This document shows positions 1 through 3,000 of a stretch of 50,287 nucleotides of DNA, piece by piece. A program made the position numbers and the translations under genes. The DNA comes from a virus, in IMG/VR virus record IMGVR_UViG_3300027719_000026, positions 1 through 50,287 of that record. One strand, 5' to 3'. Below the pieces are notes generated by a model. It searched no databases. It was not told the DNA's origin and saw only the letters and a list, made by a program, of their open reading frames with translations. Position 1 is the stretch's first letter. Each line of letters begins with the position of its first letter.

Positions 1-3000
1 TCACCCAGGAAGAAACCCCTTCTAGTATCGTCGGGTGATATCTGCGAATGTGCTTGCCCTGCGTATACTACAGACTCAAGTTGTGCAAGCGACAATATCC
101 CTTTTTCAACAATTGCTTTAGGTAACTTTGGTGAATAAGTTGGTTCGGGTGGTTCTACTGCTGCCATAGCTGCACTTTCGGATAATTCGCCAGGGTGTTC
201 CTTTGCTCCTTTAATTTCAAGCTTCGAAGGTGTATAGGTATCATAAATAGAATCGTCAAGCTCTTTTTCTACAGTCTCGTTGCTTTTATTTCCACTGACT
301 TTTACTTCTAGTTCTCGTATCTCATTTCCTCCGGATTGTTGAATATTATCCCCTTTTCGATCAGTTTGCTTGTTACCTTCTCCAGGAGATACTCGGTTGC
401 TTCCTTCGCTGTCTTTTTGTCCTTCAAATCCGATATTTGTATCACTGGGTTTTCTTCCAACACTAGGTACTTCATTGCTGTTTTTGGGTTCTGGTTGAGA
501 CTTGCTATTATCCCTTCCAACATTTCCTTCATTTCTGGTTTGGTTACTCCCATTATCTCGGGAAGCTCCACTTTCGGATTGTCTATCCCCCAACTCATTA
601 GTTGCGCCATGTGTAGTTGATTGTCCTCTATTACTTGCTCCAGTTTTCTCAGGTTTTGCATTGCTATCATATTGATCGGATGCAGGTTCGCTTTTCTGAT
701 CTCCTGCAATGTTTCTTTGCCTATCATCGTAAATTCCCTCCTTTACAAGTAATTTGACTACTTTTTTGAGGTCTGGCTCATTTGCCACTAATGTATTTTC
801 TGTTGATCCCGTCTTATCTATAACAATTAACTGTGTACCGAATGTCGTACCGTATTTTTTGTACTCATCAGTATGCTTTATATTGCTAGTTTGGTCTGCG
901 TTATACAGGGGAATGTTAGCTCTGACATTGTATTTTGCTTTTATCTTTTCCCACCAATCAGCAAAAGTTTTGGAATTATCCGTCATCCCCTGGCCTACTA
1001 TAGCAACTAACCTGCCGCCATTTTGCAATATATCCAATGCCTGTTCTATATGTGCCTTTGCATTTTTAGTGCTGTTCTTATCTCCCATTCTTCCGGCTGT
1101 TGCACTAAATGGAGGATTCATAACTACGACTGTGGGCTTTACTTTATCATGAAGTATAGAATTTATGTGTTCTGCATTTTCGTTATATACTTCATCAAAG
1201 TCCATATTCTTAAGTATTTCAAGTCTCTTTTGTGATAGTTCATTTACAACAACTTTAGCACCGTTGATCTTAGCAAAAGTAGCTATGCCGCCTATCCCTG
1301 CGGAAGGTTCCAGGGCAATATCATTTTTATCTATGTTAGCTGCAAAAGCTGCTACATAAGCTATATGCGGGGGAGTAGAAAACTGTTGGAAGTCTTTCAT
1401 TTCCTGTGTTTGGTTGGTCTGAGTAGGAAGCAATTCGACTAGGCTCTTTAATATATCTATATTTGATAATACTGCATTTATATCTTTATTGTTTGTATTT
1501 AATACCTTACTGTTCTCCAACAAGTACTGATTTACTCCAAGTTCCATAGCATCATGGACTTGCTTTCTGTCATATTTGCCTTCTGATAGCTTGCTTCCGT
1601 ATGCTTCTTCTGCCCAACCAATAAGTTCATTTATTTTAATGGTTTCATTTTTGCCTAGAGATTCCTTGACTTCATCAGCTATTTTCTGACTAGGGTTATT
1701 TGTCTGCTTTTTATTTCCCTGTTGCTTTTGTAAAAAACGCACAATCATACGGTGAAGGTATTCCCCTGTCTGTAAATCTCTTAAACTTGCAACATCGTTT
1801 AGTTGAAAATCATCGGAAAACGATATTATTTCAAAATCCTTATCGTAGTATCTGCGTACATCGTACATTGATTGGTTTTTCTCCCATCTAACAATGTCAC
1901 CAACTTTTAACCTTCCGTCTTTTGAAACGGTTCTCTTATGAGTGTCTTCTTTGGGAGTATTATTATCCTCTTTGTTAGCCAATTCAAACATTTCCTGTAT
2001 ATCTTCCGGTGACATTTCCAACATAGCTTCTGATTGTCCATATATAGCTCTCAGAAACAGCCTTAAATTATCGCCAAATTCCTCAAGCATTTCCTTTGAC
2101 CATTCTGCGAAGTCTACTACTCCGTTTGCAAGCTTGTCTGCTCCAATGATTGAATAGTCAACTAAATCATCCATAGGAAGTCCGGCATTAAGACGTACAT
2201 TTTTATGCCTATCTTTCAGTCTTTGTCTTGCTAACTCAGCTTGTGCATCGAGCCATGCAAGGTTATTTTTAACGGGTCCTTCAGGAAGTGTCTTTTTAAT
2301 CGGATTAACAGTATTGTCGTTCGGCTTAGTGTCTGCGCCCTTCTTCTCACCTTCATTATGCTCTGTTTTCTGATTATTGACAATATTTTCTTTTAAGATT
2401 TTTAGATACCTCTTTGCGATTTCAGCAGTATCCTTAAAATATTCCTGCATTTGATTAATAGAATTGCCGCTAGACTTGTCAATGTTTTCAAGGAAAACTT
2501 CTGCTACATATCCTTTAATTTTGTCCTCTACAGCTATCAACATATTTTGCTCGTCATTATCTTGGTTTGCCGCAACCTTATTAAGAAATTCATCTGTCAG
2601 TACTCTTGTTCTTACCATATTTAAAAGTTCAAGATAATTGTCGCTACCGTACCTATTAGCATTGTTAGACTCATCCATTTCTTTAAGCTTATTGAACACG
2701 TCTTCCAAAACTTCCATGTCATTGATATACTTAGCAAGTATTCCCTTTACAACTCTACCTTTTATCAAGTTATTTTGCCAATTATCGGGATAAGACTTCA
2801 TAAAATCATTATAGGCTCTTAGTGCCTTTTCTTCGTTCTTACCCATATTATCATAGAATAGTTTTTTAATATCGTTGTCTATGCTATCAGGATAGCTCTC
2901 TCTTTCGGTATTGACCTCAGTAGCCTTTACTTCTTTGCCTGTCAATTCTTTTAGTAGAACTTCTGTAGGATCATAGTTAAAGCTCCATACTGCTTTTGCC

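Follow-up and report, generated by a model that had tools for sequence, protein, structure and literature searches.

Does a short open reading frame lying out of frame within a giant viral gene encode a protein of its own and, if so, which of the two readings of the shared DNA is under selection and what might the smaller product do? We addressed this question in a virus record of 50,287 bases, referred to here in its full length as the window, whose genes include those for a terminase, a portal, a major head protein and an integrase. Comparison with related loci indicates that the ORF at 308-727 on the minus strand very probably encodes a genuine protein and is overprinted, in the +1 frame, on the linker that joins methylase and helicase in a giant polyvalent gene.

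The nested frame and its host gene

The original prediction described a 139-codon frame on the same strand as the giant ORF, +1 relative to it, with AAAGGAGGG 8 nt before its ATG, and re-deriving the ORF proved this description correct in all details. The features of the locus are the following:

3..6170, minus strand: giant polyvalent ORF with a GTG start, at least 2056 aa, running off the window and continued on the near-identical contig L002
807..1568, minus strand: adenine-methylase region of the giant protein with an NPPF motif, upstream of the nested gene (PHROG 6263 DNA methyltransferase, E=1.9e-15; alignment)
736..744, minus strand: Shine-Dalgarno (SD)-like AAAGGAGGG, 8 nt 5' of the nested ATG, with a motif of the TTGGAGGGNAT type at the corresponding position of relatives
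308..727, minus strand: putative nested, overprinted coding sequence of 139 aa, ATG at 727 and stop codon at 308-310, conserved in position, frame, start and protein sequence, with a codon periodicity that follows the nested frame
312..707, minus strand: giant-frame linker, predicted to be disordered (pLDDT about 30), sharing its DNA with the nested gene
3..224, minus strand: start of the Strawberry-notch-type helicase domain PF13872 (E=2.2e-18), cut by the window end

Thus, a complete ORF with its own start and ribosome site lies within another one in a different frame, between the adenine-methylase and Strawberry-notch helicase domains. The methylase coordinates were transferred from L002 (4160-4921), where the identical nested-ORF and SD DNA is also present and the giant ORF reaches at least 3472 codons, with matches to PF13872 (E=3.3e-122) and PF13871 (E=2.3e-87). 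A peptidoglycan-binding domain lies near the N terminus of the giant protein.

With an NPPF adenine methylase fused to a Strawberry-notch helicase in a large multidomain ORF, the giant gene is a polyvalent methylase-helicase dyad. Iyer et al. described such dyads, including a Strawberry-notch form from Methylomonas, WP_020485828.1 (Iyer et al. 2017, PMC5512222), and the window giant resembles them in being a large multidomain protein in which the adenine methylase is followed by a Strawberry-notch SWI2/SNF2 ATPase. The main text of that report does not contain the words "overlapping", "frameshift" or "out-of-frame", uses "nested" for a hairpin fold, and, as far as we found, does not refer to an overprinted linker gene. 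Our search of the open literature, with subscription papers mostly outside it, found no description of an overprinted gene in the dyad linker. The same phage encodes two more DNA methyltransferases (PHROG 116), at 31710-33704 on the plus strand and 37931-39673 on the minus strand of the window.

The two readings of the overlap differ markedly in composition, as originally predicted: the giant reading is of low complexity, with 80% S/G/N/Q/P/T/R/E/D and a GRAVY of -1.78, versus 47% and -0.46 for the nested reading. At this locus the +1 frame stays open in 0.7% of synonymous shuffles of the giant codons and in 0.3% of permutations of those codons.

Conservation and selection on the two frames

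Relatives were gathered from viral contigs, bacterial contigs and plasmids by helicase scans followed by methylase-to-helicase alignment scans. After removal of duplicates, 44 distinct loci whose linker exceeds 450 nt made up the comparison set, the window being represented by L002; L052, in which the nested ORF is present and the giant frame is broken, was excluded. All 44 loci contain a +1 linker ORF of 108-155 codons that starts with ATG and is uninterrupted by stops, and in every one the giant reading also continues through this ORF without a stop. The distance from this ATG to the end of the methylase match is 76 nt in 32 loci and 73-100 nt in the other 12, and a GGAGG-type motif (SD-like GGAG/GAGG) precedes the ATG in nearly all of them. 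Furthermore, profiles built by leaving one sequence out recognise 42 of the 44 nested products at E<1e-3, of which 41 also pass E<1e-5; L023 gives a marginal value (0.0017), whereas L017 goes unrecognised though the ORF and the SD are present. It is this conservation at the same place in every aligned relative that decisively takes the ORF beyond chance, and the overprinting that had been proposed is strongly supported by it. Carriers were found on contigs of six phyla (Bacillota, Pseudomonadota, Myxococcota, Thermodesulfobacteriota, Spirochaetota and Bacteroidota) and on plasmids of Methylomonas, Methylotuvimicrobium and Thioflavicoccus. The dyad of the Methylotuvimicrobium alcaliphilum plasmid (L061) has an in-frame TAG at about 6260, just upstream of the methylase, and its annotated CDS begins after this codon.

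Throughout the overlap, giant-frame wobble bases coincide with second positions of nested codons, so that selection on one or the other protein predicts opposite substitution patterns. In locus pairs with 70-80% nucleotide identity, differences per site were 0.23, 0.17 and 0.38 at the first, second and third nested positions, so that substitutions peak at the nested third position and the giant wobble position is the slowest of all. The amino acid identity of the same pairs was 0.70 for the nested reading versus 0.50 for the giant one, and it was higher for the nested reading in every bin of nucleotide identity. The flanking methylase and helicase regions show a normal wobble pattern in the giant frame; the methylase control value for the pair L037-L061 was disregarded as an artefact of an in-frame stop in L061.

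Shuffling experiments indicate that both frames are kept open. After synonymous shuffling of the nested codons, the giant frame stayed open in a mean of 25% of trials, compared with all 44 of the actual loci; shuffling the giant codons in the same way preserved an open nested frame in a mean of 14% of trials, and the third frame has on average 12 stops per locus. The sums of the log10 probabilities for the two frames over the 44 related loci, -59 and -43, are a rough guide only, since these loci are kin and not independent tests. Both frames thus show signs of selection, the nested one in its codon pattern and amino acid conservation, the giant one in its openness relative to shuffles and in its conserved flanking domains, with weak or absent amino-acid-level selection on the giant linker itself. 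As the third-position peak falls in the nested and not in the giant frame, the comparison indicates that the nested frame is the better conserved one, under stronger selection at the protein level, and that the giant frame is merely held open. In this sense, the original idea of a gene overprinted in a tolerant linker holds as regards overprinting, but not as regards mere tolerance, the nested frame being the more constrained reading.

Predicted fold, distribution and origin

AlphaFold modelled the window nested protein, with 34 family sequences, as all-helical with a mean pLDDT of 90.4 and a pTM of 0.84. For the giant methylase-to-helicase reading, with 20 relatives, ordered domains were obtained, and residues 268-399, which share their DNA with the nested gene, had a pLDDT of about 30. 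One DNA stretch is therefore predicted to give one ordered and one disordered product. A fold search of the nested product against PDB and BFVD returned nothing significant (best Foldseek E 0.47 and 1.0), and short-stretch matches to sigma-70 sequences in PDB (E=0.003-0.009), to which the fold search gave no support, were treated as chance. The family appears to have a confidently predicted but unknown fold.

Searching with the nested frame did not connect it to known families: Pfam, NCBIfam and PHROGs hold no family above threshold for it, with isolated weak hits only, and single-sequence searches of the phage collection and of family libraries gave zero matches. Taken alone, these null results would have made the ORF seem spurious; homologues were found, however, in the dyad relatives and by the leave-one-out profiles. 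Additionally, the RefSeq plasmid records that we inspected annotate only the giant gene at the nested loci, in a plasmid gene table that is incomplete. A protein family conserved across mobile elements of several phyla has in this way stayed hidden from the databases and annotations checked, probably because annotation rules discard long overlaps.

Small genes embedded in longer phage genes have a known precedent in the Rz/Rz1 spanin genes of phage lambda, where Rz1 is embedded in the +1 frame of Rz and the products are functional partners (PMC6139136). The window pair is alike in that a complete small gene with its own start is nested +1 in a longer phage gene. It differs in the proteins and their role, in that the host is a giant polyvalent gene and in that the pair is also found on plasmids; moreover, unlike the short proline-rich lipoprotein Rz1 of lambda, the nested product here is folded and conserved, and it is the host reading that is disordered. 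By inspection, none of the nested sequences has an N-terminal hydrophobic signal, and with a methylase-helicase host and a predicted helical fold the pair does not qualify as spanins of the Rz/Rz1 type. With overprinted viral genes in general (review PMC8227390) it shares the encoding of two proteins in different frames of one DNA stretch, but here the constraint is lopsided towards the shorter, nested gene, and the pair occurs in mobile elements across several phyla. It is an exceptionally clear example of overprinting in double-stranded DNA elements: the constraint lies on the nested gene, and the host "linker" is the passenger.

In a tree of 56 dyads, the 46 that bear the nested gene all lie on one side of a single branch and the 10 without it on the other (support 88/83; recovered in 90% of bootstrap trees). 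In the latter, the linker measures 162-384 nt; those with an annotation are stand-alone proteins of about 1,400-1,500 aa, encoded on plasmids from Alphaproteobacteria, Cyanobacteria and one Bacteroidota. This pattern fits a single gain of the nested gene, with a polarity that is tentative because the tree is midpoint-rooted. Profile searches independent of the dyad, over 23 carrier genomes, 274 genomes of a class and 300 of a phylum, returned mostly copies within dyads and two intact free-standing ones, both with their own SD-like site and ATG. One of these, L092 7963-8397, is intact with the other frame full of stops; it adjoins duplicated pieces of an ADP-ribosylglycohydrolase-like gene. The other, L095 at about 11322-11660 on the minus strand, is intact in Thiocystis near conjugation-type genes. 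Two decayed remnants without a dyad were also found (L090/L093 and L091/L094); in L090, two TAG codons interrupt the nested frame, and the other frame is open for 125 codons.

The small gene can thus persist without the giant frame, and the outgroups without the nested gene and the free-standing copies provide natural controls. Since each of the latter is closest to a particular overprinted member (44% identity to L011 in one case, 69% to L046 from the same genome in the other), both resemble later escapes; we rejected them as representatives of a free-standing ancestor, and they are uninformative on the relative age of the two frames. According to the passage of PMC6139136 that cites Rancurel et al., disorder is common among proteins that arose out of frame; by this rule, the giant linker reading may be the younger of the two frames.

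Possible roles and other nested genes

Regarding expression, ribosomes would most likely start independently at the nested SD and ATG on the transcript of the giant gene, the giant frame being read straight through the same DNA to yield only a disordered spacer. That the nested product is made together with an injected giant polyprotein, as had been suggested, is plausible as regards joint production, both genes lying on one strand of the same DNA; as for injection, the gene pair is also found on conjugative plasmids. The small, all-helical and usually acidic product would then be a partner devoted to the methylase-helicase and produced along with the giant protein wherever that is expressed. 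We favor tentatively such a partner of the co-made methylase-helicase, chaperone-like or regulatory, over a part of the virion, given its confinement to one dyad clade, its presence both in phages and on conjugative plasmids, which have no virion, and the nature of the product. In how it may work, the pair might resemble effector-chaperone pairs, in which a small, acidic, helical protein is encoded with a transported large protein and binds it; the size, helicity and usual acidity predicted for the nested product would fit such a role. It would also add a candidate for a missing partner of DarB-like methylase-helicases.

A related and rather doubtful reading makes the nested product a subunit intrinsic to the methylase-helicase enzyme, such as one conferring specificity or processivity. 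The strict tie to one dyad clade (46 of 46 in the tree), in phages and conjugative plasmids alike, is what such a subunit would show, but the 10 sampled related dyads without the nested gene look like complete enzymes, and free-standing copies occur with no dyad nearby. We regard as unlikely, in turn, that the product is an independent counter-defence protein (a DNA mimic or an inhibitor of restriction, for instance), tied to the methylase-helicase by location only. The nested proteins are small and usually acidic (median pI 4.7, charge -7.5), the host gene class has been linked to antirestriction (PMC5512222) and free-standing copies exist; nevertheless, nearly all intact copies lie inside the dyad, and charge is not conserved, being +3 in L004 (pI 9.2), +1 in L024 and 0 in L032, which argues against simple DNA mimicry.

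Far less probable is a programmed +1 frameshift from the giant frame, which would give the methylase an alternative C-terminal domain and no separate small protein. An SD-like element just upstream can stimulate frameshifting, as at the prfB site; the one found here could act in that manner, and both frames are read in the same direction. However, an in-frame stop directly before the last codon preceding the nested ATG in many relatives (L014, L018, L021, L024, L029, L034, L035, L036 and L042) leaves almost no room for a shift, the SD-to-ATG spacing is of the initiation type with ATG in 44 of 44 loci, and the free-standing copies carry an SD-like site and ATG of their own. The least credible reading, a frame that yields no product and is open by chance, owing to linker composition and codon usage in the giant gene, was rejected: a low-stop composition does keep the +1 frame of certain GC-rich relatives open (every synonymous shuffle for L016, 72% for L043), but rarely that of the window locus (0.7%), and it accounts neither for the conserved position of ATG and SD, the homology of the products and the codon periodicity of substitutions in the nested frame nor for intact free-standing copies.

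Other methylase-helicase giants contain nested genes as well. The linker of Bacteroides phage BS-TP4 (L063 5740-6099) contains a different, unannotated +1 ORF of 119 codons, which is kept in L074 with 78% identity, versus 56% for the giant reading, and with a nested-frame codon pattern. It was rejected as a member of the window nested family, with no homology detected (hhalign probability 0.2%). A third +1 family, of 120-131 codons and with the pattern M[FYH]Q[VA]P...WN, lies inside DarB-like giants of Klebsiella phage ZX1, Serratia phage Parlo, Pseudomonas phage Skulduggery, Ruegeria phage 45A6 and two Vibrio phages, at these coordinates:

L077 2186-2575; L078 2429-2818; L064 2728-3123; L096 2501-2863; L097 2501-2890; L098 2501-2896: third nested family

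Its products are homologous to one another, the records annotate only the giant gene, and in the three giants measured the ORF lies about 2.8 kb upstream of the methylase end. Judging from these sequences, the BS-TP4-type and DarB-type nested genes are apparently unrelated to the window family, and the overprinting theme recurs. There is a real, if still speculative, case that polyvalent giants commonly hide overprinted spacer genes, with at least three apparently unrelated families encoding dedicated partners and linkers existing partly as shadow readings, and this suggests searching for hidden genes in other low-complexity linkers of giant phage proteins. Cultured carriers make the genes testable: Methylotuvimicrobium alcaliphilum 20Z for the window family, and Serratia phage Parlo, Klebsiella phage ZX1 and Pseudomonas phage Skulduggery for the DarB-type one.
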